64,000 nucleotides of DNA from NCBI RefSeq assembly GCF_001183985.1, contig NZ_LFZW01000001.1, positions 2,429,357-2,493,356 on the forward strand, written 5' to 3'. Below the pieces are notes generated by a model that saw only the letters and a program-made list of their open reading frames with translations, was not told where the DNA came from and did not search any database. The translations under genes were made by a program, and so were the position numbers. Shown here one piece after another: positions 14,810 through 61,260 of the stretch (the stretch's first letter is position 1; every line of letters starts with the position of its first letter). This stretch comes from Peribacillus loiseleuriae. Its GTDB lineage: Bacteria; Bacillota; Bacilli; Bacillales; DSM-1321.

Positions 14810-15000
14810 TTATAATGATGTACTAAGCAATTTACAACTAAACAAAAACAGAAAGAAATGGTCATCGACCTTAGAAAACAGTGTCAAAATAACCGAAGAG
14901 TTGGAATAGTTGGAACGCCGTATGCGATGAAAATAGCACGTACGGTGTGAACAGGGAGCGATAACTTCAAACCCTTACATATCTGTATGAACAACGGAGG
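14810..15000 (+). ncRNA. Group II intron 3' fragment (domains V-VI)
   Basis: A 34-nt domain V is readable at 14915-14948: ACGCCGTA pairs with TACGGTGT around the conserved TGCGATGAAA-type internal loop. A domain VI-like stem (AGGG...CCCTT with an unpaired A region) follows. The upstream intron body and reverse transcriptase are absent, so this is a dead 3' end. A second copy lies at 60840-61065, and the two share sequence for about 100 bases upstream of domain V. Confidence 0.65.
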
Positions 15001-35699: not shown

Positions 35700-35804
35700 T
35701 AAATAGCTATTTATCATACTGTGAAATAATGTGGTTTTTAGGTTAATCTAAGGTGAACTTCAATTTGTTGCCCACTCTTTATAGAATGGTTTTTTTAAAA
35801 GAGA

Positions 35805-35819
35805 ATGTAAACGATTACA
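35805..35819 (+). promoter_or_regulatory. CcpA cre site
   Basis: ATGTAAACGATTACA fits the catabolite-responsive element consensus WTGNAARCGNWWWCA perfectly. It ends two bases before the ribosome site of the permease, so CcpA binding would block transcription or initiation when preferred sugars are present. Confidence 0.75.
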
Positions 35820-35833
35820 GACGGAGGGGTTCT

Positions 35834-37228
35834 ATGAAAGTTGAAACTAGAAGTATTGAATACATTCCAGCTAATGAGCGACACGGAAAGGCAAAAGATT
35901 TATTTCCAATATGGTTTGGAGCCAATATGAATATAACTACACTTGTTTCAGGGTCGTTGCCAATTATGTTAGGACTTAATTTGTTCTGGAGTGTAGTTGC
36001 AATCGTTATTGGTTCGCTCATTGGTGCCATTTTTATGGCATCCCATTCTGTACAGGGTCCTAAGCTGGGAATACCACAGATGATTCAAAGTAGAGCTCAG
36101 TTTGGGGTGATCGGCGCAATTATACCTTTGTTCCTTGTCATGTTTATTTATTTAGGTTTTTTCGCCAGTAATACACTGCTTGCAGCACAAACCATAGGTG
36201 ATATACTTCCAATTAGCCAAACTTGGAATATCATCATAATCGGTGCGATTTGTTTTGTAGTTGCACTTTATGGATACGATTTAATTCACAAAGTCCAAAA
36301 ATGGTTTTCTGCTGCATCATTGCTTATTTTTTTGATTATGACCTACATTGTTTTTCAATTGCCAGTACCACAAGAACAATGGTTACCTACTAATATTGAC
36401 GTGTCAGCGTTTTTTCTTGCGGTTAGTATTGCTGTTACTTGGCAGCTATCTTATGCCCCATATGTTGCAGATTACTCACGATATCTTCCAGTAGATACGC
36501 CGCCTAAAAAAACGTTTTGGTACAGTTATTCAGGGACAGTGATTGGAGCTGTCTGGATGATGATATTAGGGGCAGTATTAACCGTAGCGATTCCAAATTT
36601 CATGGATAATACGGGTAGTAATTTAGCGTCGCTATATGGAAGCTTTGCAATCATCATGTATGTTTTGATTGTTTTTGGGCAACTTGCTATTAATGTTTTT
36701 AATCTTTATGGTGCATTTATGTCATCGGTTACGACTATTGAACCGTTTGCTAAATTCAAAGTTACACCAAAAGTTCGGATGGGGTTCTTGCTATGCATTA
36801 CATTCCTTGCAACAATTTTATGTATTATGGGACAAGGAAATTTTCTTGAATTTTTCCTGAATTTTATCTTTTTTATGAGTTATTTTTTGATTCCGTGGAC
36901 TTCAATTAACTTGGTCGATTATTATCTATTGCGCCGAGGCGAATATAATGTTAAAGATATATTTGACCTTAATGGACAGTATGGTAAGGTCAATTGGATT
37001 GCTTCATTTGCATTTGTCGTATCAATCATTGCTGAGATTCCTTTTATTAATGCTTCCTTTTACGTAGGACCAGTGGCAAAAGCACTGAATGGAGCAGACT
37101 TAGCTTGGGCTGCAGGATTATTTTTGCCAGCCATTTTATATTATTTCCCAATGAAACGAAAGATTAGAAACACGATTATTGAATCTGACTTCCATCAGTT
37201 AGATGTTAAAAAGGTAGAAAAATTATAA
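35834..37228 (+). CDS. NCS1-family permease (purine-cytosine/allantoin type)
   Basis: 464 aa with about 12 transmembrane segments. It has the NCS1 N-terminal pattern (IEYIPANERHGKAKDLFPIWFGANMNITTLVSG) and GPKLGIPQMIQSRAQFGVIGA, characteristic of cytosine/hydroxymethylpyrimidine-type permeases. The ATG at 35834 follows CGGAGGGG. It is the likely importer of the nitrogen heterocycle degraded by the upstream enzymes, under carbon control through the cre site. A terminator at 37247 follows. Confidence 0.93.
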   Translation: MKVETRSIEYIPANERHGKAKDLFPIWFGANMNITTLVSGSLPIMLGLNLFWSVVAIVIGSLIGAIFMASHSVQGPKLGIPQMIQSRAQFGVIGAIIPLFLVMFIYLGFFASNTLLAAQTIGDILPISQTWNIIIIGAICFVVALYGYDLIHKVQKWFSAASLLIFLIMTYIVFQLPVPQEQWLPTNIDVSAFFLAVSIAVTWQLSYAPYVADYSRYLPVDTPPKKTFWYSYSGTVIGAVWMMILGAVLTVAIPNFMDNTGSNLASLYGSFAIIMYVLIVFGQLAINVFNLYGAFMSSVTTIEPFAKFKVTPKVRMGFLLCITFLATILCIMGQGNFLEFFLNFIFFMSYFLIPWTSINLVDYYLLRRGEYNVKDIFDLNGQYGKVNWIASFAFVVSIIAEIPFINASFYVGPVAKALNGADLAWAAGLFLPAILYYFPMKRKIRNTIIESDFHQLDVKKVEKL

Positions 37229-37660: not shown

Positions 37661-38862
37661 ATGTCAACTTTACGTGAAGAGTCATTAAATAAGCATAAAG
37701 AAAAGCAAGGAAAGTTAGGCGTACATTCGAAAGTTCAAGTTCAAAACGCGAAGGATCTAAGCCTTGCTTATTCTCCTGGGGTTGCAGAGCATTCATGCAG
37801 ATGAAAGAAAAGCGTATGATTATACGATGAAAGGGAATCTTGTTGCTGTTGTTTTGAATGGTACAGCTGTACTTGGTCTAGGTAATATTGGACCGAAAGC
37901 GGCTATGCCTGTTATGGAGGGGAAAGCATTATTATTCAAAACTTTTGCAGATGTCGATGCATTTCCGATTTGCTTAGATACAACGGATCCAGACAAGATT
38001 GTTGAAGCTGTTAAATTGTTGGAGCCTACTTTTGGAGGAGTAAATTTAGAAGATATTGCTGCCCCTGAATGCTTTGAAATTGAAGAGCGGCTACGAAAGG
38101 TATGTAATTTTCCATGATGATCAGCATGGAACGGCTATTGTAACCACTTCGGGATTACTAAATGCTCTGAAACTAGTTGACAAAAGAATAGAAGAGATTC
38201 GTGTTGTAGTAAACGGTTCCGGTGCTGCTGGGGTGGCAATTGTTAAATTGCTTCTCCGTATGGGCGTAAAAGACGTCATTTTATGTGATACAAAAGGCAT
38301 TATTTATGAAGGTCGCCTAGTTGGAATGAATCCATTTAAGGAGGAAATGGCCGATATCACTAATAAAGAACAAATAGTTGGGACATTGGGAGATGCTCTT
38401 GTGGGAGCAGATGTGTTTGTCGGAGTGTCTGTAGCCGGCGCTGTTACGAAAGACATGGTTCGTTCCATGAATCGTGACCCGATTATTTTTGCTATGGCAA
38501 ATCCAATTCCAGAAATCATGCCAGAAGAGGCGAAGGAAGCAGGAGCACTGGTAATAGGGACAGGTCGTTCAGATTTTCCAAATCAGGTCAATAACGTACT
38601 TGCATTCCCTGGTATTTTTCGAGGGGCTTTGGACGTACGAGCGAAAGAAATAAATGAAGAAATGAAACTGGCAGCTGTTTACGCTATTGCAGAATTAATA
38701 ACTGATGAAGAGCTTTATGCTGATTATATCATTCCAGATCCATTTGACCCTAGAGTAGCTGCTTGTGTAGCAGAAGCTGCAATAGAAACGGGTGTTTCAC
38801 AAAAAAATAGAGATGTAGCAGTAACTAAAAGGCGTCCATTAGCCTTAGCGGAAGAAAAATAA
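37661..38862 (+). pseudogene. NAD(P)-malic enzyme with two small frame-breaking deletions
   Basis: Decarboxylating malate dehydrogenase of the short bacterial type (about 400 aa): [79 protein letters not shown]. The reading frame breaks after SPGVAE near 37790, where the expected PCKE codons have lost about 11 bases. It breaks again after ERLRK near 38100, where about 11 bases of an ETNIP-like segment are gone. Everything else is well preserved, so the loss is recent or a sequencing artefact. Pyruvate formation would fit the end of the catabolic cluster. Confidence 0.88.
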
Positions 38863-46568: not shown

Positions 46569-46716
46569 ATGAAAGGGTTTTTGAAATTATTTATGGGATT
46601 ATTTTTGGCTTTTACATTAACAGGATGCATAGGGGAAGAATATGATTTTACTCCACCTACTGTTACAATTTCTACTACAATAGACAGTATCAATGAGCAA
46701 TCTTTGTTCAGTCGGT
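46569..46716 (+). pseudogene. Truncated lipoprotein gene
   Basis: MKGFLKLFMGLFLAFTLTGCIGEEYDF (lipobox LTGC) with a good AGGGGGTATGAA upstream. It breaks into transposon sequence after about 49 codons (IDSINEQSLFS). The 3' part was replaced by the TnpB fragment. A second shorter leader of the same style (MKGFIFYLMAFLGV, stop) is at 49011. Confidence 0.65.
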
Positions 46717-47772
46717 CAATTCTTTTCGTTAGAAGAAAAGACAAACAAGACTGGTTTTCGTTACTTTCCCGAAAACAAAGGCATGGAATGGTTAGGGCTG
46801 ATCCTGCCTGTCATGATGAAAGATCGAGATGAATACGCCCATCTTGCGCTTCAAGATAAAATCAAATATTGCCGACTTTTAAAAAAGAAAATTCGTGATA
46901 AAAATCGTTACTTCGTTCAATTGGTACTAGAAGGTTTTCCACCAAAGAAACGCAATCAGAACGATTCCAAAGATGAAAACGCTCGTGTTGGATTAGATAT
47001 TGGCACATCAACAATCGCCATTGCTTCTGAAAATGAAGTGAAGCTACTTGAGCTATCGGAAGGTTTGTCCGTAGACGAACGCAAAAGACGGATCTTACAG
47101 CGTAAATTAGATCGTAGGCGTAGAGCAAATAACCCTAACAAATATAAGGAAGATGGCACAATCAATAAATCAAATCGAGAGAAATGGATTCAAAGTGAAA
47201 ATTACAAGAAAACTCGAAAAGAATTAGCGGAACTGAGCCGAAAGGTAGCGGATAAGAGAAGACTTGCGCACAACATTCTAGCCAACCATATTCTCTCGTT
47301 AGGTTTAGATGTCCGAGTTGAAACCATGAATTTCAAAGGGCTTCAAGGAAAGGCAAAGAAAACAGAGGTTAATGAAAAGACTGGACGATACAAACGAAAA
47401 AAACGTTTTAGAAAGTCAATAGCGAATCGTGCGCCTTCGATGTTTCTTACCATTATCGACAATAAACTTAAATATTTCGGCTTATCCCTAAAGCGAATTG
47501 ACACCGCTAAAGTAAAAGCCAGTCAATTTGAACACTTCACGCAAACGTACGTAAAGAAAAAACTCTCAAAACGTTGGAACCACTTCGAACAAGGGGATAT
47601 TCAACGTGATTTGTATAGTGCCTTCCTAATCATGAATACAAAAGATAATCTACGTGAAATAGATGTTGGACGAGCAAATCAAACGTGGAACAACTTCTTT
47701 GATCAACACGAACAAGAAATGGAACGAATGAAACATTTGAACAAAAAACAATTAAGTAGTATTGGCTTGTAA
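46717..47772 (+). pseudogene. TnpB-family RNA-guided nuclease (IS605/IS1341 type), N-terminus missing
   Basis: About 350 residues of a TnpB-like protein from FFSLEEKTNKTGFRYFPENKGMEW to LNKKQLSSIGL. The RuvC-like catalytic triad is intact: Asp in GLDIGTSTIAIAS, Glu in VETMNFKGLQ, Asp in QRDLYSAF. No CxxC zinc ribbon is visible in the C-terminal part. The N-terminal domain that recognises the guide RNA and target motif is absent, the sequence being joined to a lipoprotein leader, so it is probably inactive. No TnpA transposase is nearby. Confidence 0.72.
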
Positions 47773-49274: not shown

Positions 49275-50260
49275 ACTGAACATTTTCATGCTCGTTATAC
49301 CCAATAGGGATTCATTATATTAGTGTCAAAGTGTATATTAAATGTTTTGATGAATTAAAAGAAAAAGAGAAGGTTGATAATTCACCTCTTTTTCACAGAT
49401 TAGAAAAGCTCAAAGGAATGTGTTTATTATTTTTACAATGAAAGCATAAAGCGTCATTGTCATACTAGGATGAATCTAAGTGAAGGATTGATTGTGCACA
49501 TTTGGACGTTCAGTAGAATCTGTTAGACCATAATTACTCTATACAAGACACATGATAAATAATGAGGGAAATGTTTAGAGAAGTGATGAAAGTAATTAAA
49601 GTTCTTACAAAGGGAAAAAAGCAGATGGAGCGGAACCAACCGTTCTTTTCTTCTTTTCCCATTGATACCTATCGTTTGATTCATTAGATCAACTATATCT
49701 CACATAAGTGACACGATTTCTAAACATTTCATTCCCGTTATAACAAGTCATTTAACCATCACTTCATACCATTTGGCTAATCGTGATATATTAAGCAAAA
49801 ACATAAAGAAATGTTTGCTATCTTCTGAACAAAAAAACCTCATGCCAGCATTGAGAAAGCTTGAATAGGAAAAAGAAAATGAATGGTTCTTTTGTTGTTT
49901 GAATAAAATAATGATTTATTGTTGCGAACCAATAGTGAGGATCAGTTGATAAAAGATCATCTTAAGGATATAATAATCTAAATATTATTTCTATTCTTGA
50001 AACCATAGAAGTTACAGACCATTAAGATTAAGTGAATTTTTCCGATTAGTATAGATAATTCAAGCAAGGTATTATACTTAATTTACTTTGACTGGATAAT
50101 ACCTGAGATAAGAAGTGTAATGAGGTCTGTAAGCCATGTCTGTTCTTGCTCTTTATCACCCTTGGTATTTATATATAGTTGGGGATTCTGTTTTCATTTA
50201 ATGTTTATTGAAAATGTAGTTTCATTCAATGCGATGAAGAAATAGAATTAAACAAATAAA
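49275..50260. other. Nearly 1 kb without a gene
   Basis: No supported coding sequence on either strand between the transposon end and the TPP riboswitch. It probably holds the promoter of the following operon but no clear consensus was pinned down. Confidence 0.45.
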
Positions 50261-50263
50261 TAT

Positions 50264-50397
50264 TACGGGAGTCTGTGGAATCAGGCTGAGAGTATGACTA
50301 ACTGTCGTAGACCGTTTGAACCTGTTGGGTAATGCCAGCGTAGGGATTGTGAATAGGGGACTACTATGCACTTTGCTTATGCAAAGTGCTTTTTTTA
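50264..50397 (+). promoter_or_regulatory. TPP riboswitch with terminator, controlling the LuxE/LuxC-ABC-SDR operon
   Basis: THI-box aptamer at about 50264-50352, with the invariant GGCTGAGA (50284-50291), GAACCTG (50318-50324), GGGTAATGCCAGCG and AGGGA. A terminator GCACTTTGC / GCAAAGTGC plus seven T (50368-50397) lies between aptamer and gene, so high TPP should switch the operon off. This places the downstream genes in thiamine metabolism independently of their homology. Confidence 0.93.
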
Positions 50398-50423
50398 TTT
50401 TCTACGAAAGGAATGATTCTAAG

Positions 50424-51512
50424 ATGAGTAAACAGCAAGAAGTAATCAAAAATATTGTTTGTTTTATGCAAAATGAATTTTCCTCAGACGATGCATTCAA
50501 TGAACATGCCTTACAATTATTTTCTTATCAATACCAGAATAATCTTCCTTATCAAACCTTTTGTTTTCAAAAAAGAAAGACACCAAGAGTTGTTAAGTCG
50601 TGGAGAGATATTCCAGCCGTTCCGATTAATGCTTTTAAAGAGGTAACGTTAAGTTCTACAAAAACGGAAGAAGCAGAAGCAGTCTTCATGACAAGCGGGA
50701 CAACAAAAGGGATAAGAGGCAAGCATTATCACCCTACTTTAGATGTATTTGACCAGTCCATGATTTTCAACTTCAAGAAAAGATTTATGAAGGAAACGGA
50801 AAAAATCCGTATGGGGATTCTCTTTCCAACAGAAATAGAAATGCCTAACTCTTCATTAGCCCACTACTTAGCTCTCGGTTTGCGGGAGTTTGGTACGGAG
50901 GATAGCCACTATCTAATAACTGAAAGCGGCGTTAATATGGGCCGGTTGCTGAAGGAACTTGATCATGCTGAAAAAACAGGGAAGCCTTATGCCCTTTTAG
51001 GTGCCAGTTTTAGTTTTGTACATATGTTTGATGAATTAAAACGAATGGGAAAAACCTTTATTTTACCAAAAGGAAGTAAAATCCTAGATACGGGAGGATA
51101 TAAAAATCAGTCAAAGGAATTGAGCTTGGATGAATTTTATGAATTGCTATCCACCTTTTTAGGTGTAGATCGTTCTGAAGGTATCAATATGTATGGGATG
51201 ACAGAATTAAGCACACAATTTTATGATTATGGGAATCTAAGTGTGCCATCTGTTAAATCAGGGCCGCATTGGATAAGGACTAGAGTGATTAATCCTTTAA
51301 CGGGTGAAGAGGTTCCGAAAGGGGAACGAGGAGTACTCGTCCACTGCGATTTAGCTAATTTTAACTCGGTTACTACAATCTTAACAGAAGACTTAGGGGT
51401 CGAGGTCGATGATGGTTTTCTTTTATTAGGGAGAGTGCAAGGAACAGAGGCGAAGGGCTGTTCATTAGCTGTGGACGAGTTTTTAAAAGCTGCAAAGGGG
51501 GTTTCGAATTGA
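50424..51512 (+). CDS. LuxE-like acyl-protein synthetase / acid-activating enzyme
   Basis: 362 aa, LuxE family (PF04443, related to the ANL adenylating enzymes). ATP-binding loop FMTSGTTKG (Thr90-Thr94), MYGMTELSTQFYDYG as the second adenylate motif, and a C-terminal Cys346 (EAKGCSLAVDEF) positioned like the LuxE acyl-acceptor cysteine. In bioluminescence LuxE activates an acid as acyl-AMP and hands the acyl group to LuxC. The ATG at 50424 follows GAAAGGAATG. It is first in a TPP-controlled operon and its stop overlaps the next start. I infer activation of a carboxylic acid related to thiamine. Confidence 0.88.
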   Translation: MSKQQEVIKNIVCFMQNEFSSDDAFNEHALQLFSYQYQNNLPYQTFCFQKRKTPRVVKSWRDIPAVPINAFKEVTLSSTKTEEAEAVFMTSGTTKGIRGKHYHPTLDVFDQSMIFNFKKRFMKETEKIRMGILFPTEIEMPNSSLAHYLALGLREFGTEDSHYLITESGVNMGRLLKELDHAEKTGKPYALLGASFSFVHMFDELKRMGKTFILPKGSKILDTGGYKNQSKELSLDEFYELLSTFLGVDRSEGINMYGMTELSTQFYDYGNLSVPSVKSGPHWIRTRVINPLTGEEVPKGERGVLVHCDLANFNSVTTILTEDLGVEVDDGFLLLGRVQGTEAKGCSLAVDEFLKAAKGVSN

Positions 51513-52960
51513 GAGAGGTTGCAGGATATATACCAGATATAGGTGAAGAGGATTTTCAAAAGAAAATATTAATTTTTAAGAGAAATGATATAGAAATAGA
51601 AGTAGAAATTCCACTTCTTACGATTGAGCAGATAAACAAGGTGATAGATAAGGTTAAAAAGGCGAATACTGAAATCTTAAAATCTTTTTCCGTTGTTGAG
51701 ATACTAAACATTATAGATAAAGCGATTGATAGATTACTTGATCGTACCACATCATATCGTCAAAAAGCGGAACAGCAGTTGCCGATTATCACAGGATATG
51801 ATGAAGAAGTGATTCGTCTTGGTCTTACCTCCTATTTGAAAAAGTTTCGTAAACATGAACTCCAGCGTTTTGTTCTTGAGGATTTGGGAAATCCCTTACT
51901 ACTTGATGATTTTCAACCTCGAATTAAAGGTGGATTTTCAAAGGCAGTCGGACCTAATCTTATCACCCACATCTGGTCAGGAAATGTCCCAGCTCTTCCT
52001 TTATGGAGCTTTATCTCCGCATTGTTGGCCAAGTCAGGGAACATTGGGAAGGTCTCCAGTGCGGAGCCTTTGTTTGCCGGCTGGTTTGCCCGATTATTAG
52101 TGGAAATTGAACCTAAATTAGCGGATTGTTTTGCTGTTATTTGGTGGAAAGGGGGAGACAAAGAGAGGGAAACCTGCATATTGGAACAAAGTGATGTTGT
52201 AGTAGGTTACGGAAGCAATGGGACGCTAGAGTCCCTTCGAAGTAGAACACCAATTACCTCTCGATTTTTGGCTTATGGGCATAAGATTAGTTTTGGAGTG
52301 ATTTCACATACAAGCCTAGATTCACAGAAATCTTTTGGAACGGTACGTCAAGCAGCACTTGATGTAATCCGTTATGATCAGCAAGGCTGTTATTCTCCCC
52401 ATATTATTTATGTCCAACATGGCGGCAATGTTTCGCCAAGAGAATTTGCAAGATATATGGCGCATGAACTGGATAATTTGGAGAAAAGGTATCCACGCCG
52501 AAGTCTTTCAATGGAAGAGTCTGCTGCCCTAGCATCGTGGCGACAAAAAGAAGAGATGAGTGTATTCTTTGATTCTCAAAAAGAGGTGTTAGGAAATACA
52601 ACACACGATTGGACTGTTGTTTACGAAGAAGAGGATATCAACTTCACTCCAAGTTGTCTAAATCGGGTAATAAAAGTGATTGCTTTTGAAAAAATAGAGG
52701 ACCTAATTCCTACCATTGAGCCTCACCGTGCTTTTCTCCAAACGATTGGTATAGCTGGAAGCCCAAAAGAACTTTTTCATTGGGCAGAGTCATTAGGGAG
52801 AATAGGCGTAACACGTATAACTGCTTTGGGCAGTATGACTTCTCCCGAAGCGGGTTGGCATCATGATGGCCGTTTTAATTTGCTAGACTTGATTAACATG
52901 GTAGATATAGAGTCCTCTGCTGAAGTGTACAGTGAAAAATTTGCCCCTTATGTGGATTAG
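51509..52960 (+). CDS. LuxC-like NADPH-dependent acyl reductase
   Basis: 483 aa, LuxC acyl-CoA reductase family (PF05893), ALDH-like fold. The catalytic Cys294 lies in DQQGCYSPHIIYV. It also shows the family's GPNLITHIWSGNVPALPLWSFI and FLAYGHKISFG. It receives an activated acyl group from the LuxE partner and reduces it to an aldehyde. It starts at TTG 51509, overlapping the luxE-like stop (TTGA), behind AAAGGGGG. No luxAB genes exist here, so light production is excluded. The TPP riboswitch implies a thiamine-related acid. Confidence 0.88.
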   Translation: MREVAGYIPDIGEEDFQKKILIFKRNDIEIEVEIPLLTIEQINKVIDKVKKANTEILKSFSVVEILNIIDKAIDRLLDRTTSYRQKAEQQLPIITGYDEEVIRLGLTSYLKKFRKHELQRFVLEDLGNPLLLDDFQPRIKGGFSKAVGPNLITHIWSGNVPALPLWSFISALLAKSGNIGKVSSAEPLFAGWFARLLVEIEPKLADCFAVIWWKGGDKERETCILEQSDVVVGYGSNGTLESLRSRTPITSRFLAYGHKISFGVISHTSLDSQKSFGTVRQAALDVIRYDQQGCYSPHIIYVQHGGNVSPREFARYMAHELDNLEKRYPRRSLSMEESAALASWRQKEEMSVFFDSQKEVLGNTTHDWTVVYEEEDINFTPSCLNRVIKVIAFEKIEDLIPTIEPHRAFLQTIGIAGSPKELFHWAESLGRIGVTRITALGSMTSPEAGWHHDGRFNLLDLINMVDIESSAEVYSEKFAPYVD

Positions 52961-52971
52961 GAGATAGTGGA

Positions 52972-53718
52972 ATGGTTTTTTTGCTAGTTAATGATGTGAC
53001 ATACAGTTATCAAGGCAAAGGGTCAGTTATCAATCGAGTAAGCTGGGGAATTGAAGAAGGGGAGTTTCATTGTTTACTAGGGAAGAGCGGGTGTGGAAAA
53101 ACGACCTTATTAAAGCTCGCTGCAGGCTTGTTGCAAGTTGATACCGGAAGCATTTTCCTGAATGGGAAGGAAGTTGTTAAGCCATCTCCTGAAGCCGGCT
53201 TTGTCTTTCAATCACCAACCTTATTAGAATGGAAAACTGTAATGGACAACGTTCTGTTGCCTGTTTCCCTTAGACGAAAGGTGACAACAAAGGATCGAGA
53301 GAACGCCATGAAGTTATTGGAGACTGTTGGGTTAGCAGAATATATCCAAAGGTACCCAGCACAATTATCAGGAGGTCAGCAGAGTCGTGTAGCCATTGCA
53401 AGGGCGCTTATTCAACAGCCGTCTATGATGTTCTTGGATGAACCATTTGCAGCCCTAGACGCGATTACAAGAGAAGAATTACAGGACGACCTTTTAAAGA
53501 TATGTAAACAACAAAATACAACAGTTCTTTTTATTACACATGATATCTCGGAAGCTGTCTACCTATCAGACAGGATTGCAGTCATGGATCAAGGTAGCAT
53601 TATCTATCAAACAGCTGTTCAGCTTTCAAAGCCGCGAACAGTGGAAGTGAGGTACAGCCCATATTTTAATGACCTTTGCCTCGATGTACGTCAGGTCATG
53701 GGGGCCGAACGGTCATGA
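52972..53718 (+). CDS. ABC importer ATPase (ThiZ-like)
   Basis: 248 aa, nitrate/sulfonate/thiamine-precursor transporter ATPase family. Walker A GKSGCGKTT, Q-loop VFQSPTLLEW, signature LSGGQQSR, Walker B MMFLDEPFAALD, switch His in FITHDISEAV. It follows the reductase by 11 bases and ends in ATGA overlap with the permease. With the next two genes it forms a ThiXYZ-type importer. Known ThiXYZ takes up formylaminopyrimidine, a thiamine breakdown product. Confidence 0.9.
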   Translation: MVFLLVNDVTYSYQGKGSVINRVSWGIEEGEFHCLLGKSGCGKTTLLKLAAGLLQVDTGSIFLNGKEVVKPSPEAGFVFQSPTLLEWKTVMDNVLLPVSLRRKVTTKDRENAMKLLETVGLAEYIQRYPAQLSGGQQSRVAIARALIQQPSMMFLDEPFAALDAITREELQDDLLKICKQQNTTVLFITHDISEAVYLSDRIAVMDQGSIIYQTAVQLSKPRTVEVRYSPYFNDLCLDVRQVMGAERS

Positions 53719-54470
53719 AACGATTTCCGTTATACTCTGTATTACTTTTTCTTATTTTGTTATTTGTATGGGAAATAAGCGCAAGATCCATGTCAGAACT
53801 TGTACTTCCGGGTCCTTTTGTAATCTTTAGGACTCTTTTAGATGGCATAAAGAGCGGGTACTTCACGCCGCATATTATCCGAACAACATTAGAGGTGATA
53901 CTAGGTCTGTTTTTTGGAGGATTATTCGGGTTTATGACTGGAATTATTATGGGAGAAATAGTTTTTTTACGGAAGCTTCTATTTCCTTATATCATTGCTA
54001 GTCAAGCAGTTCCGAAGCTCGCCCTAGCCCCCCTATTTATACTTTGGTTTGGATTTGGAATGACTTCTAAAGTCGTAATTACGGCACTAATTTGTTTTTT
54101 TCCTTTGTTGGAGAATACCGTTACAGCTATAAAGTATACGGACAAGCAGAAGCAGGAACTTTTTCGAATGCTAGGAGCTTCCCGCTGGAAAATCTTAATA
54201 CAATTAAAGATACCTGCTGGTATGCCAGGGATTATTGCTGGACTGCGCGTAGCAGTTGTCTTGGCAATTGTGGGGGCAGTGATAGGAGAGTTTGTTGGAG
54301 GAAGTGATGGTTTAGGGGCGGTAATTATCGCATCACAGGGAATGATGGATACACCATTAATGTTCGCCACCTTAATTTTGTTAACGGCCATGGGGATGAT
54401 TCTCTATCGGGTTGTCCAACTATTGGAGAAGAAATGGTTAATTCGATTTATGAAGGAGAAGGAAAAATGA
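53715..54470 (+). CDS. ABC importer permease (ThiX-like)
   Basis: 251 aa, about six membrane helices. Binding-protein-dependent permease signature around FRMLGASRWKILIQLKIPAGMPGIIAGLRVAVVLA (EAA loop) and VIGEFVGGSDGLG. The true start is ATG 53715, overlapping the ATPase stop. Its own stop overlaps the next ATG. Confidence 0.9.
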   Translation: MKRFPLYSVLLFLILLFVWEISARSMSELVLPGPFVIFRTLLDGIKSGYFTPHIIRTTLEVILGLFFGGLFGFMTGIIMGEIVFLRKLLFPYIIASQAVPKLALAPLFILWFGFGMTSKVVITALICFFPLLENTVTAIKYTDKQKQELFRMLGASRWKILIQLKIPAGMPGIIAGLRVAVVLAIVGAVIGEFVGGSDGLGAVIIASQGMMDTPLMFATLILLTAMGMILYRVVQLLEKKWLIRFMKEKEK

Positions 54471-55498
54471 AGGCAAAAGTTATATTAGCGGTTTTATTGG
54501 TATTGGTGTTAATGTTTGTAACGGCATGTGGAGCTAAGGAACAGGCAAGTAAGGAATCCGATTCTGCTAAACTGCAACCGATCAGGGTAGCAAATTGGAG
54601 TAAGCCGATTACAGAGCAAACGAATTTATTAGTGGATGAGAAAAAACAGTTTTTCAAAGATAAAGGGTTAGAAGTAACCGTTATTCCCGGAGCTGGTGGC
54701 GGAGATGCAATTAAAAATATTGTTACTGGACAAGCTGACATTGCGTTTACAGATCCCGGCTCCTTATTCTTTGCATTAGACAAAGGAGAAAAATTGAAAG
54801 TGATTTATAATATCTATCCCCAAAATGTATTTAACATTGTATCACGTAAAGACAAAAACCTTATCAAGCCACAGGATCTAAAAGGGAAAACAATTGGCGT
54901 ATATAGTTTAACAAGCGGCACCCGTCAAAATTTATTAGTTCTTCTACATCAAGCTGGTCTTGCTGAAAAAGATGTAAAAATCGTGGAGACAGGTCTGTTG
55001 AATTTTGCTCCTTTGATGCAGGGGCAGGTGGATGCTACAGCTGCAACAGATACAGGGTTAGTCATTGGTAAACAAAAAGGATTAGGTGAAGTAAATGTAA
55101 TACAGGTAAAAGATTATTTGAATGTGCCTAGCGATCTATTTGTTGTCACAGAAAAGGCGTATAAAGAAAAGAAAGAGACTCTGAAAGCCTTTTTAGAAGC
55201 ATACCGGAGTAGCGCACAGTGGATGATCAAAAACCCAGAGGAAGCCGCTTCACTAGCATCAGAATATGCGATTGACGGAAAAGATGAACAACAAAATTTA
55301 AGAATTATTACATTGCGAAATGCTTCGAGTGTTTCTCCTGAAACCGAGAGCAAAGGTTTAGGGGTACTTGATAAATCGGTGTTGCAGAAAGCGGCAAATA
55401 CGTATCAAAAACTAGGACTAATCGATAGCAAAATCGATATGAATGAGGTAGTAAGTGACGATATTCTTCCTAATATAAAAACAGAGGAGAAAAAATGA
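54467..55498 (+). CDS. ABC importer substrate-binding lipoprotein (ThiY-like, NMT1/THI5 domain)
   Basis: 343 aa. Signal peptide with lipobox VTAC (MKAKVILAVLLVLVLMFVTACGAKE), then an NMT1-type periplasmic-binding fold: WSKPITEQTNLLVDEKKQFFKDKGLEVTVIPGAGGGDAIKNIVTGQADIAF. This domain family includes binding proteins for pyrimidine precursors of thiamine. It starts in ATGA overlap with the permease. The ligand is predicted to be the acid (or its amide precursor) processed by the flanking enzymes. Confidence 0.9.
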   Translation: MKAKVILAVLLVLVLMFVTACGAKEQASKESDSAKLQPIRVANWSKPITEQTNLLVDEKKQFFKDKGLEVTVIPGAGGGDAIKNIVTGQADIAFTDPGSLFFALDKGEKLKVIYNIYPQNVFNIVSRKDKNLIKPQDLKGKTIGVYSLTSGTRQNLLVLLHQAGLAEKDVKIVETGLLNFAPLMQGQVDATAATDTGLVIGKQKGLGEVNVIQVKDYLNVPSDLFVVTEKAYKEKKETLKAFLEAYRSSAQWMIKNPEEAASLASEYAIDGKDEQQNLRIITLRNASSVSPETESKGLGVLDKSVLQKAANTYQKLGLIDSKIDMNEVVSDDILPNIKTEEKK

Positions 55499-56259
55499 AA
55501 AAATTTCATGGGAAAGTAATACTTGTGACGGGAGCTAGTCGAGGAATAGGAGCTTGTATTGCTCGTGCATTTGCTAAGGAAGGAGCCTTGGTGATCATTA
55601 ATTACCTGCAAAACCAAGAGGCAGCCAAACAAGTTGCTCTAGAATGTACTAAACTTGGTGGTGAAGGGTGGGCTATACAGGCCGATGTAACTTCTGAATC
55701 GTCAGTCAATCAGATGATAGAAGAAGTATTGGAAGCAGGGAAAATTGATGTTCTCGTGAATAATGCCTTTAAATCTTACATTTTTGATGCCAATCAACGA
55801 AAAATGGCATGGGAGCTAAACTGGGAAGATTATCAGCTGCAAATTGACGGAACCTTGCGTTCGACACATTATATGTGTCAGGCAGTCCTGCCTATTATGA
55901 AAAAACAGAGTTATGGCAGCATCATTAATATGACTAGTAACTTAGTTGAAAGACCGATTGTTCCTTATCATGAATACACTACAGCTAAAACCGCACTTAT
56001 GGGTTATAGCCGTAATCTAGCTGCGGATCTGGGACCTTTTGGTATTAGGGTTAATTGTGTTGCTCCGGGCCTTGTCTATCCGACGGATGCAAGTAAGGGT
56101 ACAAAAGAAGAGTTAAAGGACCTCATCATATCCCAAACCCCTCTCCGTAGAATTGCTACCCCAGAAGATGTAGCAGGGCCCGTATTGTTTCTAGCCTCAG
56201 ATTGGAGTCAGTTTATGACAGGACAAACTTTATTTGTCGATGGTGGGCTTGTCATGTAA
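55495..56259 (+). CDS. Short-chain dehydrogenase/reductase (FabG-like)
   Basis: 254-aa SDR: cofactor motif TGASRGIG (12-19), NNA motif in LVNNAFKS, catalytic Ser (NMTSNLVE), Tyr and Lys in YTTAKTA, and LFVDGGLVM near the end. It starts in ATGA overlap with the binding protein and is the last gene of the operon. A natural role would be reduction of the aldehyde made by the LuxC-like enzyme to an alcohol such as hydroxymethyl-pyrimidine or hydroxyethyl-thiazole (inference). Confidence 0.88.
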   Translation: MKKFHGKVILVTGASRGIGACIARAFAKEGALVIINYLQNQEAAKQVALECTKLGGEGWAIQADVTSESSVNQMIEEVLEAGKIDVLVNNAFKSYIFDANQRKMAWELNWEDYQLQIDGTLRSTHYMCQAVLPIMKKQSYGSIINMTSNLVERPIVPYHEYTTAKTALMGYSRNLAADLGPFGIRVNCVAPGLVYPTDASKGTKEELKDLIISQTPLRRIATPEDVAGPVLFLASDWSQFMTGQTLFVDGGLVM

Positions 56260-56740
56260 TATCGCGACAATCATTACTTAGAAAGTATGTCCTTATAATT
56301 TTTACTAAAGTTTATGACCTTGTAGAAAATAATGTCATTGAAGAAACATCCAATAATCTAATCTAGATACAGAAAGCAAGTTGTTTAGGCAGGTGGAATA
56401 AACAGATATTCCTAGTTGGATTTTAAGGGGGCATAAAATAAGGAATGTTAGAAAAATTCCTTTCCGCACTAATATCTAATAGTCGTAAAGTTTTGGATAC
56501 AATTAAAATCGACAGAAATATCGAAATGTTAAAGAAGTATTCTTGGTGATTAATAGTTATAAGGATGAAGGATATCATAGGTTATTCTTTGTAAATAGAA
56601 AGGTTTAGAAAGCATGTTTCGCGTGAAAAGGATTATTTAAAACTGGATTAAAATAGAATGGAATTCACTTGAAACATTCCAATTAATGTGTTAGATTTAT
56701 AGTTGTAATCTGAATAATCAAATAAATCGAATTATTAAAT
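56260..56740. other. Intergenic between the two TPP-controlled operons
   Basis: About 480 bp, AT-rich, no gene recognised. Confidence 0.45.
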
Positions 56741-56744
56741 TACT

Positions 56745-56910
56745 AGGGGATCCCTTGATAAGGGCTGAGAATAAAGTAGTTACTTTTTAAACCCTCAAAA
56801 CCTGAACAGGTTAGAACCTGCGTAGGAAAGTAGCGAATGTTTGTACTTGTTTGCATGTGAACAAATTTCAAACCAAACCACTTTTCTATTTAGGAGAGTG
56901 TTTTTTTTAT
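56745..56910 (+). promoter_or_regulatory. TPP riboswitch of the tenI-thiOSGF operon
   Basis: Second THI-box: GGGG, GGGCTGAGA (56762-56770), ACCCTC, AACCTGAACAGGTTAG and AACCTGCGTAGGAAAG at about 56814-56830. A hairpin CACTTTTC / GAGAGTG with eight T (about 56880-56910) is a plausible terminator. The tenI start is a further 90 bp downstream. Confidence 0.92.
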
Positions 56911-57000: not shown

Positions 57001-57609
57001 GTGAAGCTAATGGCTGTAACAGATGATATGCAATCAGTTCGTGATCTGGCATCTAAGATCATTGGGATAAAAGATAAGATCGATATTGTCCAAATACGCG
57101 AAAAAACAAAAACAGCTCAAGAAATCATCACCTTGCTCGAGTATATGGAAGAGGGTGGTGTTGAAAAAGATAAAATCATCCTAAATGACCGTTTGGATAT
57201 TGCTTTGTTAATGGGTATCCCCAGTGTTCATTTACCAGAAAAAGGTCTTCCTGTAAAACTGGTTAAACAAAATTTTCCTCATATAAGGGTTGGACGCTCT
57301 GTTCATTCTTATGAGGGAGCAAAGAAAGCGGAAAGAGATGGCGCGGACTATGTTTTATATGGTCATTGTTTTGAGACCAATAGTAAAAAAGGAAAGACTC
57401 CAAATGGCATTCAGCCTATTCTCGAAATGAAAGAGGAGCTAAGGATCCCTGTTTATGCTATTGGTGGTATTACATTGAATAAAATAGATACTTTGCAACA
57501 AGTGAAAGCAGATGGCATAGCGGTGATATCAGGGATTTTTTCCGCAGAAAAACCATTCACTTCAACAAAACAGTATTATGAGGCGATAAATCATGAATCA
57601 AAAATTTGA
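57001..57609 (+). CDS. tenI: Thiazole tautomerase TenI
   Basis: 202-aa TIM-barrel protein of the TenI/ThiE family. It aromatises the ThiG product (thiazole phosphate carboxylate tautomer). ThiE-like landmarks: VQIREKTKT, LNDRLDIALLMGIPSVHLPEKGLP, RVGRSVHS, YVLYGHCFET, VYAIGGIT. Its place as first gene with thiO-thiS-thiG-thiF marks it as TenI rather than thiamine-phosphate synthase. GTG start 57001 with AAGGAGAG upstream. It overlaps thiO by 17 bases. Confidence 0.9.
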   Translation: MKLMAVTDDMQSVRDLASKIIGIKDKIDIVQIREKTKTAQEIITLLEYMEEGGVEKDKIILNDRLDIALLMGIPSVHLPEKGLPVKLVKQNFPHIRVGRSVHSYEGAKKAERDGADYVLYGHCFETNSKKGKTPNGIQPILEMKEELRIPVYAIGGITLNKIDTLQQVKADGIAVISGIFSAEKPFTSTKQYYEAINHESKI

Positions 57610-58711
57610 AGTAGCCATAATTGGCGGCGGAGTAATTGGTTGCTCAATTGCTTATTATTTAGCAAAGGAAAAGATGAATGTGGCATTGTTTGAAGGCAAT
57701 CAAATAGGTTCGAAATCGACAAGTGCCGCAGGTGGTATGCTTGGAGCTCACTCTGAATGTGATGGGGATTTTGAAGTGTTTTTCCCTTTTGCAAGAAGCA
57801 GTCAGTATGCCTATTCCCAACTTAAAGAAGAATTAAATCATTTGAGCGGTTTCGATATAGGGTACAGAAAAGGTGGGATTTTAAAGCTGGCTTACAATGA
57901 ATCTGATAGAAATGGGCTTCGGTCCATCTTATCTCAACCGACTGTAAAATGGCTCGATAAAGAGGCTGTACGGGAGAGGGAACCTGATGTTTCTTCCAAT
58001 CTATTAGGAGCAGCCTACATGAAAGACGATGTCAATGTTATGCCAATCGCTGTTTGTCAGGCATTTGCCAAAAGTGCCCAAATACTTGGGGCTTCTCTGT
58101 TCGAATTTTCCCCTGTACTAGATATTCAAAAGAAAGATAATAGCTTCTTAATTCAAACAGCAACAAGTCATGTTGAAGCTAAGCATGTTGTGGTTGCCAA
58201 TGGGGTTTGGAGTACAACATTTTTTAAACAGCTTGGGTTAGACCATCAATTGACTCCTGTAAAAGGGGAATGTCTATCTGTAATAGATGAAAAAGCGACT
58301 TTAAAACATACAATCTTTCATGATCATTATTATATTGTGCCGAGAAATAACGGAAGGCTTGTGATTGGGGCTACCATGATTGAGAATGACTGGAATGAAA
58401 GAGTTAGTCTCAGTGGGATGGACACTTTAATTGCGAAGGCAAAAACGATGCTTCCGACTGTTGCAGATATGAAATTGGATTCATTTTGGGCTGGATTGCG
58501 TCCGCAAACATTTGATCAAAAACCATTCATCGGGCACCATCCTGAAGAAGAAGGGATTTTATTTGCTACAGGGCATTATCGAAATGGAATCCTACTTGCT
58601 CCTGCAACGGGGCAAATGATTCGTGATTTGATACTTAAAAGACAAATAAAAAACGAATGGGTGGAGGCCTTTAAAATCGACCGCCGCCAGCCATTGCTGT
58701 TAAGGAGGTGA
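57593..58711 (+). CDS. thiO: Glycine oxidase ThiO
   Basis: 372-aa FAD-dependent amino-acid oxidase that makes the dehydroglycine used for the thiazole ring. Dinucleotide fold IIGGGVIGCSIAYYLAKE at the N-terminus, GSKSTSAAGGMLGA, the ANGVWS block, and RLVIGATMIEN with FWAGLRPQTFD and TGHYRNGILLAPATG near the end, as in B. subtilis ThiO. It starts within tenI, so translation is coupled. Confidence 0.94.
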   Translation: MNQKFEVAIIGGGVIGCSIAYYLAKEKMNVALFEGNQIGSKSTSAAGGMLGAHSECDGDFEVFFPFARSSQYAYSQLKEELNHLSGFDIGYRKGGILKLAYNESDRNGLRSILSQPTVKWLDKEAVREREPDVSSNLLGAAYMKDDVNVMPIAVCQAFAKSAQILGASLFEFSPVLDIQKKDNSFLIQTATSHVEAKHVVVANGVWSTTFFKQLGLDHQLTPVKGECLSVIDEKATLKHTIFHDHYYIVPRNNGRLVIGATMIENDWNERVSLSGMDTLIAKAKTMLPTVADMKLDSFWAGLRPQTFDQKPFIGHHPEEEGILFATGHYRNGILLAPATGQMIRDLILKRQIKNEWVEAFKIDRRQPLLLRR

Positions 58712-58715
58712 AAAA

Positions 58716-58919
58716 ATGTCCATCATATTAAATGGAAATAATGTTGACCATCAAGAGGGAGTCAATACGGTTGAACAATTACTTTCCCACTATCATTTAG
58801 AAAACCGTATTGTCGTAGTTGAGGTCAACAAGGAAATTGTCATGAAAGAAAACTATAAAACAATGAGTCTCTCACATGGGGATGTCGTTGAAATTATTCA
58901 TTTTGTAGGAGGAGGATGA
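58716..58919 (+). CDS. thiS: Sulfur-carrier protein ThiS
   Basis: 67-aa ubiquitin-like protein ending in Gly-Gly (HFVGGG), the residue adenylated by ThiF and converted to thiocarboxylate as sulfur donor for ThiG. Internal VEVNKEIVMKENY and DVVEIIHFV are typical. AAGGAGGTG precedes the ATG, and it lies four bases after thiO. Confidence 0.94.
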   Translation: MSIILNGNNVDHQEGVNTVEQLLSHYHLENRIVVVEVNKEIVMKENYKTMSLSHGDVVEIIHFVGGG

Positions 58920-58922
58920 AAC

Positions 58923-59690
58923 ATGTTAAAAATTGCCGATCGCACGTTTCGATCAAGACTTTTGTTAGGAACTGGTAAATATCCATCGTTTGATATTCAA
59001 AAAAAGGCGGTAGAAGTATCGGAAGCAGAAATTTTAACCTTTGCTGTTAGAAGAATGAATATTTTTTCAGAGGAGCAACCCAATTTTCTTGAACAACTAG
59101 ATTTGTCTAAATATACGCTTCTTCCTAATACGGCTGGTGCAAAAACAGCTGAAGAGGCGGTGCGGATTGCGAAACTGGCAAAAGCTTCTGGATTATGTGA
59201 CATGATTAAAGTGGAAATAATTGGAGATGATCGAACACTTTTACCAGATCCTGTTGAAACATTAAAAGCCTCTGAAATGTTATTGGAAAAAGGATTTATT
59301 GTTTTACCTTATACATCCGATGATGTTGTGTTAGCAAGACGTCTTGAAGAACTTGGGGTACACGCTGTTATGCCAGGTGCATCACCGATTGGTTCTGGTA
59401 AGGGAATTATCAATCCACTTAACTTAAAGTTTATTATTGAACAGTCTTCGATTCCGGTGATCATTGATGCGGGTATTGGTTCACCTAAAGATGTAGCATT
59501 TGCGATGGAACTTGGTGCGGACGGAGTGTTACTAAATACAGCTGTTTCAGGTGCGAAAGACCCTGTTAAAATGGCTCAAGCAATGAAGCTGGCAATAGAA
59601 GCAGGGAGATTAGGTTTTGAAGCTGGAAGAATAGAAGAAAAAGAGTATGCGGTAGCGAGCAGTCCAACAACTGGAATGGTGACATCTTGA
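58923..59690 (+). CDS. thiG: Thiazole synthase ThiG
   Basis: 255-aa TIM barrel that joins deoxyxylulose phosphate, dehydroglycine and ThiS thiocarboxylate. The Schiff-base Lys96 is in MIKVEIIGD. Also [32 protein letters not shown] and [31 protein letters not shown]. Its stop overlaps the thiF start (TTGA). Confidence 0.96.
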
Positions 59691-60703
59691 CGAATCGATA
59701 TTCAAGACAGGAATTATTTTTAGGAAGTAAGGCACAAGCCAAAATAAAAGAGGCGAGTGTAATCATCATTGGTGCTGGAGCTCTTGGATCTGCAAGTGCA
59801 GAAATGTTAGCGAGAGCTGGAATCGGGCGTCTAACGATAGTCGATCGAGATTATGTCGATCTAAGCAATTTACAAAGGCAGCAATTATATACGGAAGAAG
59901 ACGTAAGAAACCAATTACCAAAAGCCATTGCTGCCAAAACAAGACTCGAACAAATCAACAGCGAAATTATTATTAATAGTTTCATACAGGATGTTAACGG
60001 GCTGAATATTGAAGAATTGATAGAAGATCATTCAGTGATTGTGGACGCTACTGATAATTTTGAAACTAGTTTAATTGTGAATGATGCAGCTTTGAAACAT
60101 AGAATTCCATTTCTATTTGGAGCATGTGTTGGAAGTTATGGACTTACATATCCGATTATTCCGGGAGAAACACCTTGTTTACACTGTTTATTAAATCATT
60201 TGCCAATGGATGGGATGACATGTGATACTGTTGGCGTGATAAGTCCGATCGTTCAAATTACTGCGGCATTACAAGTTACACAAGTTTTACAGATTCTTTC
60301 AGGAGAAACACTTTTTCCGATGCTTCAATCAATGGATATTTGGAAAAATGAAAAAGCGGAGATCAATGTGACTCAGTTAAAAAATAAACTTTGTCCAACA
60401 TGTGGAGAACATCCATCCTACCCTTTTTTACTGTTTGAAAACCAAATGAAAACAGATGTATTATGTGGAAGAGATGCTGTCCAGCTTCGACCAGGGCTAA
60501 AGCCGAAAACTTATTCCCTCCCTTACTTGTTGGAGAGATTGAAGAATCACGTTACTAATCCTGTATTAAACCGATATTTGCTTTCATGTAAATTTGAGGA
60601 TTATCGAATCGTTTTCTTTGAGGATGGCCGTTCGATTATTCACGGTACGAATGAAGCGAAAAAAGCGCGAGCTGTCTATAAACGATTCATTCAATTTTAT
60701 TAG
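59687..60703 (+). CDS. thiF: ThiS adenylyltransferase ThiF
   Basis: 338-aa E1-like MoeB/ThiF enzyme. It has [29 protein letters not shown] (Arg finger), [15 protein letters not shown], zinc cysteines C-x2-C (CLHC and CPTC) and an active-site Cys region [12 protein letters not shown]. It activates the ThiS C-terminus with ATP. TTG start, coupled to thiG. The last about 80 residues extend beyond MoeB, as in Bacillus ThiF. Confidence 0.93.
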
Positions 60704-61260
60704 GATTTATTATTTGGTTTAACGGTGGACCGCATTGTTATTTTAATTGTTCATTAGTGATCTAAATGAATAATACCAAATTGTACACTAGCTAATACAT
60801 CTAAAAGATATTGAAAAAATTAAAGCTTTACTTAATTCTTTACAACTCGATCATAAACAGAAAGAAAAGGTCAATGAACTTCGAAAATAAAGCAAAAATG
60901 ACCCAATCTGAATTTTGGAACCAATAAATTAGCTTCATTAGATATATAGAATTGAATGAATTGGATTAGTTGGAACGCCGTATGCGATGAAAGTTGCACC
61001 TACGGTGTGAGCGAGGGGAAAAGGGAGCGATAAATTCAAACCCTTACCTATTCGTCATGAATAAGACTTCCAAAAAGGTCTGGATATTTATGTTAATTTT
61101 AGTGTGTGGATTGTAAAGAAATGTAATTACACTATAGTTTAGTTTAAAGAAGATTACAAAATATTTAAAGGATAAACGCATAGAACATCGCTCCGAACGC
61201 GGGATAACCTGTTCAATGAAAGGGTACTATAAAAGAGAACAAGCCTAAGAAATGGATAAG
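60704..61260. ncRNA. Group II intron 3' fragment (second copy) and spacer
   Basis: Domain V is readable at 60975-61008 (ACGCCGTA paired with TACGGTGT, GCGATGAAAG loop). A domain VI-like stem (AGGGAG...CCCTTACC) and a 3' end near CTATTCGTCAT follow. Upstream bases from about 60840 are shared with 14810-14900. No reverse transcriptase. The remainder up to the decarboxylase is gene-free. Confidence 0.6.

Follow-up and report, generated by a model that had tools for sequence, protein, structure and literature searches.

A TPP riboswitch-preceded luxE-luxC operon of Peribacillus loiseleuriae and its candidate role in thiamin precursor salvage

The locus and its encoded proteins

The operon described here lies in a stretch of 64,000 nucleotides of the Peribacillus loiseleuriae genome (assembly GCF_001183985.1, contig NZ_LFZW01000001.1, positions 2,429,357 to 2,493,356), hereafter the window, whose coordinates are used unless another locus is named. 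It consists of a thiamin pyrophosphate (TPP) riboswitch, a terminator and six genes encoding LuxE- and LuxC-like proteins, an ATP-binding cassette (ABC) importer with its substrate-binding protein (SBP) and a short-chain dehydrogenase/reductase (SDR). Its features are as follows:

50255 to 50364, + strand: TPP riboswitch aptamer (RF00059), J4/5-shortened subtype; Rfam covariance model
50368 to 50399, + strand: intrinsic terminator, GCACTTTGC-TTAT-GCAAAGTGC plus a T-rich tail; hairpin search
50424 to 51512, + strand: LuxE family, predicted ATP-dependent acid activation / acyl-protein ligase (S91-G92-T93-T94, Cys346); Pfam PF04443
51509 to 52960, + strand: LuxC family, predicted acyl-thioester reductase (Cys294), from acid level to aldehyde; Pfam PF05893
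52972 to 53718, + strand: ABC importer ATPase; Pfam ABC_tran
53715 to 54470, + strand: ABC importer permease; Pfam BPD_transp_1
54467 to 55498, + strand: NMT1/THI5-type SBP; Pfam PF09084 (NMT1)
55495 to 56259, + strand: SDR, proposed aldehyde-to-alcohol reductase giving hydroxymethylpyrimidine (HMP); Pfam adh_short_C2

Pfam bore out the six-gene order that a sequence-only reading of the window had proposed. The junction coordinates also agreed with its statement that every gene except that of the ATPase starts within the end of the previous one, since four of the five junctions are 4-nt overlaps and 11 nt separate the luxC stop from the ATPase start. The LuxE start was taken as the ATG at 50424; an alternative TTG at 50316 falls within the riboswitch.

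LuxE and LuxC enzymes convert an acid into an aldehyde through an acyl-AMP and an acyl-enzyme. The SGTT loop (S91-T94) and Cys346 of LuxE and Cys294 of LuxC, to which the same reading had drawn attention, were all present in the window proteins, which matched PF04443 at 90.4 bits and PF05893 at 333.3 bits, respectively, and aligned to the luciferase reductase 7XC6. S91, G92, T93 and C346 of LuxE were invariant over 81 aligned rows and C294 of LuxC over 76, gaps being allowed in at most a tenth of the rows; the nucleotide loop and the acyl cysteines were also kept in the 10 rows of a plasmid and NCS2-type set (10/10). The SDR of the window has G13, G17 and G19 together with S148, Y161 and K165. 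The three glycines, Y161 and K165 were invariant over 69 rows, and position 148 was serine in 57 of these rows and threonine in the other 12.

The SBP matched PF09084 at 175.4 bits (cut-off 20.5) and its N-terminus resembles a lipobox by eye. Its conserved segments are YPQN, VYS..SGT and ATDTG, and a putative anion site may lie at the SGT segment. Five solved structures were found as relatives: 4NMY (the closest), 3QSL and 3IX1, and, through a short SGT-containing stretch, 8U79 and 1US4. The third of these, 3IX1, binds formylaminopyrimidine (FAMP); it was matched at 42.5 bits, and the YPQN, SGT and ATDTG segments differ from it in the alignment.

Conservation under TPP control and spread of the operon

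A pattern-based LuxE scan of 84,980 species genomes yielded 87 loci, the best 80 of which were kept. By contig titles, 25 belong to Bacillota and 55 to beta-proteobacteria, the latter being Burkholderiales in every case where the title goes down to family or genus level (L063 and L093 are titled beta-proteobacteria only). All six genes were matched in the order of the window in 66 of the 80 loci, in both groups; 11 loci stop early at a contig end, and three operons from metagenome-assembled genomes (MAGs) of Alcaligenaceae (L071, L075 and L086) gave no ATPase match. Two Hylemonella MAGs (L088 and L089) have approximately 1.1 kb between the SBP and SDR genes, and the LuxC match of L085 is split in two pieces. 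A TPP site was located upstream in 24 of the 25 Bacillota loci, 23 by regular expression and L020 by the covariance model, and L024, the remaining one, gave only a degenerate match of 26 bits. Among the beta-proteobacterial loci the covariance model placed a TPP site upstream in 54 of 55, two of them cut by the contig end (L040 and L088); the exception is L074, whose contig starts inside the upstream thiD. The proposal of the sequence-only reading depended on the gene order being conserved elsewhere under TPP control, and this is what was found.

The operon is patchy among relatives of P. loiseleuriae, a LuxE of at least 70% identity being present in 6 of 101 genomes, its own included. As a weak control, distant LuxE paralogues (L014-L016, 23-26% identity) had no TPP site within 1.5 kb upstream. 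The loci L012 and L013 also lacked one within this distance, yet it was found in wider stretches. LuxC relatives were sought in viral contigs and none was found.

These data bear on the possibility that the substrate of the three enzymes is an acid unrelated to thiamin, fatty or otherwise, and that TPP control is indirect. The family names suggest it, and LuxE and LuxC proteins of known function act on long-chain acyl groups. However, the window proteins fall far under the cut-offs of the luciferase equivalogs (80.8 vs 550 bits for LuxE with NF052244, 107.9 vs 750 bits for LuxC with NF052251) and almost all loci examined in this clade have a TPP aptamer ahead of them, so that we hold this explanation to be very improbable.

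At the luxE leader of the window, RF00059 was the only Rfam family above its gathering score (56.1 bits vs 54.3, E 2.6e-8). The terminator-like hairpin between aptamer and luxE has nine pairs followed by T7 (50368-50389), 50 shuffles averaging 0.1 such site, and a similar hairpin was present downstream of the aptamer in 20 aligned Bacillota leaders. The aptamer and terminator of the sequence-only reading were thus recovered, but the aptamer is not the full THI-box that it had described: J4/5 reads CCTG-TTGG instead of CCTG-ATC-TGG, and the two bases after G60 are absent. The accessible part of PMC3764141 gives U59, G60, C77, G78 and A80 of the TPP riboswitch as highly conserved around the pyrophosphate. 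The window leader keeps CCTG...CCAGCGTAGG and thus these bases (numbering carried over by eye) and, because they are retained, TPP is probably still the ligand of the short form.

The short J4/5 (ACCTGTTGG) was found in 18 Bacillota loci out of 25; six carry the ordinary ACCTGATCTGG and one, L024, has a degenerate form. The six are L030, L031, L032, L035, L037 and L038, which are those containing thiW; the beta-proteobacterial aptamers have a J4/5 of ordinary length. A strict pattern of the short form identified 8 sites in 7 of 398 genomes of the phylum (L097-L104), three before luxE, four before thiM-thiD and one before a transporter-like gene (by reading). A new ligand for the shortened riboswitch was considered. 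This idea was weakened by the presence of the same subtype before thiM-thiD-thiE (L105-L108) and by L103, in which the transporter-like gene is followed by a gene for a thiamin pyrophosphokinase-like protein (both named by reading only). None of the query proteins matched in L111, a larger stretch around L103. An antiterminator pairing of the P4 3' strand with the terminator 5' arm was not supported either, as at least 4 pairs were formed in 12 of 21 leaders, compared with 617 of 1050 for shuffled arms; one more leader, L033 (the 22nd), fell outside the pattern used.

The operon occurs in three architectures, all of them preceded by TPP aptamers. Type A is the six-gene form of the window, found in Bacillota, in beta-proteobacteria, on the two Azospirillum plasmids that were examined out of nine and on one Priestia plasmid. 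In type B, a permease of the NCS2 family precedes luxE-luxC-SDR; it was found on the lactobacillus plasmids L116 and L117, on the Niallia taxi megaplasmid L118, where thiW lies ahead of the operon, and in the relative genome G040 (L122). A decayed type B copy, with the permease and a short luxE piece, is present in genome G038 (L123). Type C consists of luxE-luxC-SDR and lacks an importer gene inside the operon; it was seen on the three Pantoea plasmids that were examined out of thirteen (L114, L115 and L119), with a peptide-type ABC gene set upstream of the riboswitch. The identity of the type B permease was established with Pfam and NCBIfam on L116 and by similarity for L117, L118, L122 and L123. 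The L116 permease matched PF00860 at 242.9 bits and passed NF037981 (purine/pyrimidine permease; 83.3 vs 40), being below the cut-offs for xanthine permease (325.1 vs 414.15) and NCS2 TIGR00801 (231.6 vs 291.8). The conserved core is therefore luxE-luxC-SDR, to which the importer is a variable addition. The sequence-only reading had counted the importer as a component of the pathway, which holds for the type A loci but not for those in which an NCS2 permease replaces it or for the three Pantoea operons.

LuxE homologues were detected on 27 of 72,556 plasmid records. The covariance model gave a TPP aptamer in 10 of 10 plasmid loci examined, and Rfam confirmed aptamers in the six plasmid loci submitted as well as in L122 and L123. 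In two loci, L118 (6703-6999) and L123 (4818-5215), tandem pairs of TPP aptamers were observed ahead of the NCS2-type operon. A Pseudomonas silvicola plasmid (L120, 7001-10282) carries a broken or decayed copy of the cassette that, like L123, still has a TPP aptamer ahead. A midpoint-rooted tree of LuxE, LuxC and SDR, built with the 78 rows having all three, placed the 24 type A Bacillota in one clade (support 1.0), which is nested within copies from proteobacteria, and the three type B rows in another clade. This nesting suggests that the operon moved between phyla, the root of the tree being uncertain.

Thiamin gene content of the carriers

The sequence-only reading had left three substrates open, namely acids of the pyrimidine half, of the thiazole half and of thiamin itself. 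Thiamin genes were compared in the 42 isolate genomes among the 80 loci (19 Bacillota and 23 Burkholderiales). Both ThiM and thiamin pyrophosphokinase (TPK) were over cut-off in 19/19 Bacillota and 0/23 Burkholderiales carriers, eight of the latter having only ThiM matches of 20.9-26.5 bits. ThiK was over its cut-off in none of the 23 Burkholderiales, ten of which had weak matches of 20-36 bits. Since ThiM, TPK and ThiK are not over cut-off, neither hydroxyethylthiazole nor thiamin would be phosphorylatable by these known enzymes in the Burkholderiales carriers, while HMP is a substrate that ThiD can use.

ThiG passed a low Pfam cut-off in 42/42 carriers and was full-length in 40/42, including all 23 Burkholderiales (L026 and L031 gave short matches of about 30 bits), and ThiC was missing from 8/42. 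Seven carriers have ThiG and no ThiC match (L030, L033, L052, L064, L068, L073 and L076), five of them Burkholderiales. The genome of P. loiseleuriae itself (G000), rated 100% complete, is in the same situation, with no ThiC match and with ThiG and the thiazole branch intact; genes of this branch adjoin the operon:

56735 to 56845, + strand: second TPP riboswitch, belonging to the adjoining thiazole operon; Rfam
57001 to 60703, + strand: tenI-thiO-thiS-thiG-thiF, thiazole-branch genes; context of the operon

Other TPP sites of this genome are followed by tenA (L001), by thiW-thiD and by another NMT1-type SBP gene (L003). The opposite case, ThiC without full-length ThiG, was found only in L031, which has ThiM, and thiW in the operon; L026 lacks both ThiC and a full-length ThiG. 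The TenA family (PF03070) was present in 25/42 carriers and gave no match in 17/42, among them L030, L052, L064 and L076, four of the seven carriers with ThiG and no ThiC. TenA was also sought in the flanks of the 80 loci and no match was reported. In addition, thiD lies directly 5' of luxE in 17 beta-proteobacterial loci (that of L064 was confirmed as HMP-P kinase) and also precedes luxE in L045, there with the riboswitch between them, and thiO, thiG or thiE is downstream in several loci. The absence of ThiM, TPK and ThiK, the carriers with ThiG and without ThiC and the adjacency of thiD to luxE point to the pyrimidine half, with HMP as the probable product.

The same data contain arguments for a thiazole acid, in which 4-methylthiazole-5-acetate would be imported and reduced to hydroxyethylthiazole for ThiM. 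All 19 Bacillota carriers have ThiM, thiM adjoins the operon in eight loci (L030, L031, L032, L034, L035, L037, L038 and L045; L026 has a 40-residue match) and thiW stands after the riboswitch in seven operons (L030, L031, L032, L035, L037, L038 and L118). However, ThiW would already cover the thiazole half where it is present, the 23 Burkholderiales lacking ThiM have a full-length ThiG, and the importer is exchanged for a permease of a nucleobase family. We therefore consider salvage of a thiazole acid unlikely.

The whole vitamin would be salvaged if thiamin acetic acid were imported and then reduced to thiamin. The closest solved relative of the SBP, 4NMY, is a structure that we take to be thiamin-bound, and thiamin acetic acid is recorded as a rat metabolite in the title of Amos and Neal (1970), cited in PMC7575681. 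Against this, with TPK and ThiK over cut-off in 0/23 of the Burkholderiales carriers, these known kinases could not activate free thiamin, and the thiD adjoining luxE would have no purpose; recovery of the intact vitamin is accordingly very unlikely.

Several observations count against the salvage of a pyrimidine acid, besides the long-chain substrates of known LuxE and LuxC proteins. Most carriers (34/42) keep ThiC, and a TenA-family gene offers a possible second pyrimidine route in the 25 carriers that have it and in the genome of P. loiseleuriae. The thiM neighbours of several Bacillota loci are equally explained by a thiazole acid, and the absences of thi genes depend on assemblies of unstated completeness. 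Nor does carriage track ThiC loss in Ramlibacter, the genus of L064: among 59 genomes (33 carriers and 26 non-carriers), ThiC was over cut-off in 6/33 carriers vs 7/26 others (Fisher p 0.53, or 0.36 when a partial ThiC match in G539 was counted), so that ThiC loss was not found to correlate with carriage there.

Proposed pathway and its relation to known systems

Taking all this into account, we propose that the operon is a TPP-repressed system for the salvage of the oxidised pyrimidine half of thiamin, which would be reduced to HMP for ThiD, and we assign to this reading a probability of about 0.6. The SBP, permease and ATPase would import a heteroaromatic carboxylate, most probably 4-amino-2-methylpyrimidine-5-carboxylate, a thiamin metabolite according to the title of Neal and Pearson (1964), cited in PMC7780320. 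LuxE would use ATP to convert the acid into an acyl-AMP and then load the acyl group onto Cys346; LuxC would receive it on Cys294 and reduce it to 4-amino-5-formyl-2-methylpyrimidine, and the SDR would reduce this aldehyde to HMP. ThiD would then give HMP pyrophosphate (HMP-PP), which would be joined to the thiazole phosphate. With abundant TPP the riboswitch would favour the terminator, and we infer in this way an OFF logic. The proposal is consistent with the NMT1/THI5 type of the SBP and its FAMP-binding relative, and with the nucleobase-family permease that can replace the importer. Import of an acid and its reduction to aldehyde and alcohol, as the sequence-only reading had suggested for a thiamin precursor, also fits the conserved TPP-controlled core and its catalytic residues, and is supported as a candidate.

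HMP might also be made independently of ThiC from an acid not derived from thiamin, whether a different pyrimidine from the environment or an acid internal to the cell. The genetic logic would be the same, and the three Pantoea operons have the core without an importer gene, as would be expected for an internal acid. Nevertheless, type A and type B loci do pair the core with an importer, and no further enzyme was seen recurring with the core in both phyla, in flanks that were only partly annotated. Such an origin of the acid seems improbable to us.

The proposed salvage of a pyrimidine acid has several known relatives. The ThiXYZ/ThiY-TenA pathway salvages FAMP, TenA releasing HMP from the amino compound. 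It shares with the proposal the NMT1-type ABC importer, the TPP riboswitch, the pyrimidine half and the delivery of HMP to ThiD; it differs in that the operon would reduce an acid through LuxE, LuxC and SDR instead of the TenA step, and in that P. loiseleuriae keeps its TPP-preceded NMT1-type SBP gene (L003) and tenA (L001) apart from the operon. The fatty acid reductase LuxC-LuxE of luciferase operons (7XC6) has the same families, conserved cysteines and SGT, and acid-to-aldehyde chemistry; unlike it, the proteins of the operon are below the equivalog cut-offs, no luciferase gene is present, control is by TPP and an SDR follows. ThiW-ThiM, which salvages hydroxyethylthiazole, is likewise a TPP-controlled salvage of a precursor and is sometimes within the same operon, but it concerns the other half of thiamin, a reduction step is proposed only here, and the Burkholderiales carriers have no detected ThiM. 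Finally, the HMP-PP riboswitch (thiS motif) resembles the window leader in its role in thiamin metabolism and its terminator, its aptamer being distinct from that of TPP in the accessible parts of PMC6478431 and PMC7266159.

Elsewhere in the window, matches to group II intron domains (RF00029) were found at 14913-14988 and 60973-61058. An open reading frame (ORF) of 359 amino acids at 46693-47769 resembles a transposon nuclease by eye, and Pfam at 1e-8 gave no match for it. A malic-enzyme-like sequence at 37764-38862 is split over two overlapping frames and is possibly broken (by eye), and a PF02133 permease at 35753-37228 adjoins an ORF that looks isochorismatase-like by eye, with no TPP site near it in the Rfam scan.

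We know of no other vitamin salvage that uses such reduction chemistry. The sequence-only reading had likewise known of no salvage route of this composition, and among the papers listed from the open literature, which leaves most subscription journals outside, no description was found of a TPP riboswitch with LuxE/LuxC or an acyl-protein synthetase, or of thiamin-acid salvage; this does not prove its absence from print. The one listed paper that combines luxC, luxE, thiamin and riboswitch, PMC3219970, has the lux genes as reporter in its accessible part. Supplements aside, the accessible main text of the TPP regulon survey PMC3766115 contains neither 'lux' nor 'aldehyde', and that of PMC2211319 has nothing on luxE/luxC-type genes.

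In a wider form, which we would back at even odds, the chemistry of the luciferase-type fatty acid reductase would have been put to use on a small heteroaromatic acid. The oxidised and excreted pyrimidine of vitamin B1 would then be a nutrient recovered by Bacillota and by alpha-, beta- and gamma-proteobacteria through a mobile, sometimes plasmid-borne luxE-luxC-SDR cassette with an exchangeable importer, and this would be a main or only HMP source for carriers lacking ThiC. If this is true, the operon would represent a new route of vitamin B1 recycling and would explain how HMP is obtained by bacteria that lack ThiC but keep the thiazole branch intact. It would also give a function to a clade of LuxE and LuxC proteins whose current annotations read long-chain fatty acid--CoA ligase or acyl-CoA synthetase, and acyl-CoA reductase, and would predict trade in a thiamin-derived pyrimidine carboxylate as a nutrient in soil, in the rhizosphere and in fermented food.

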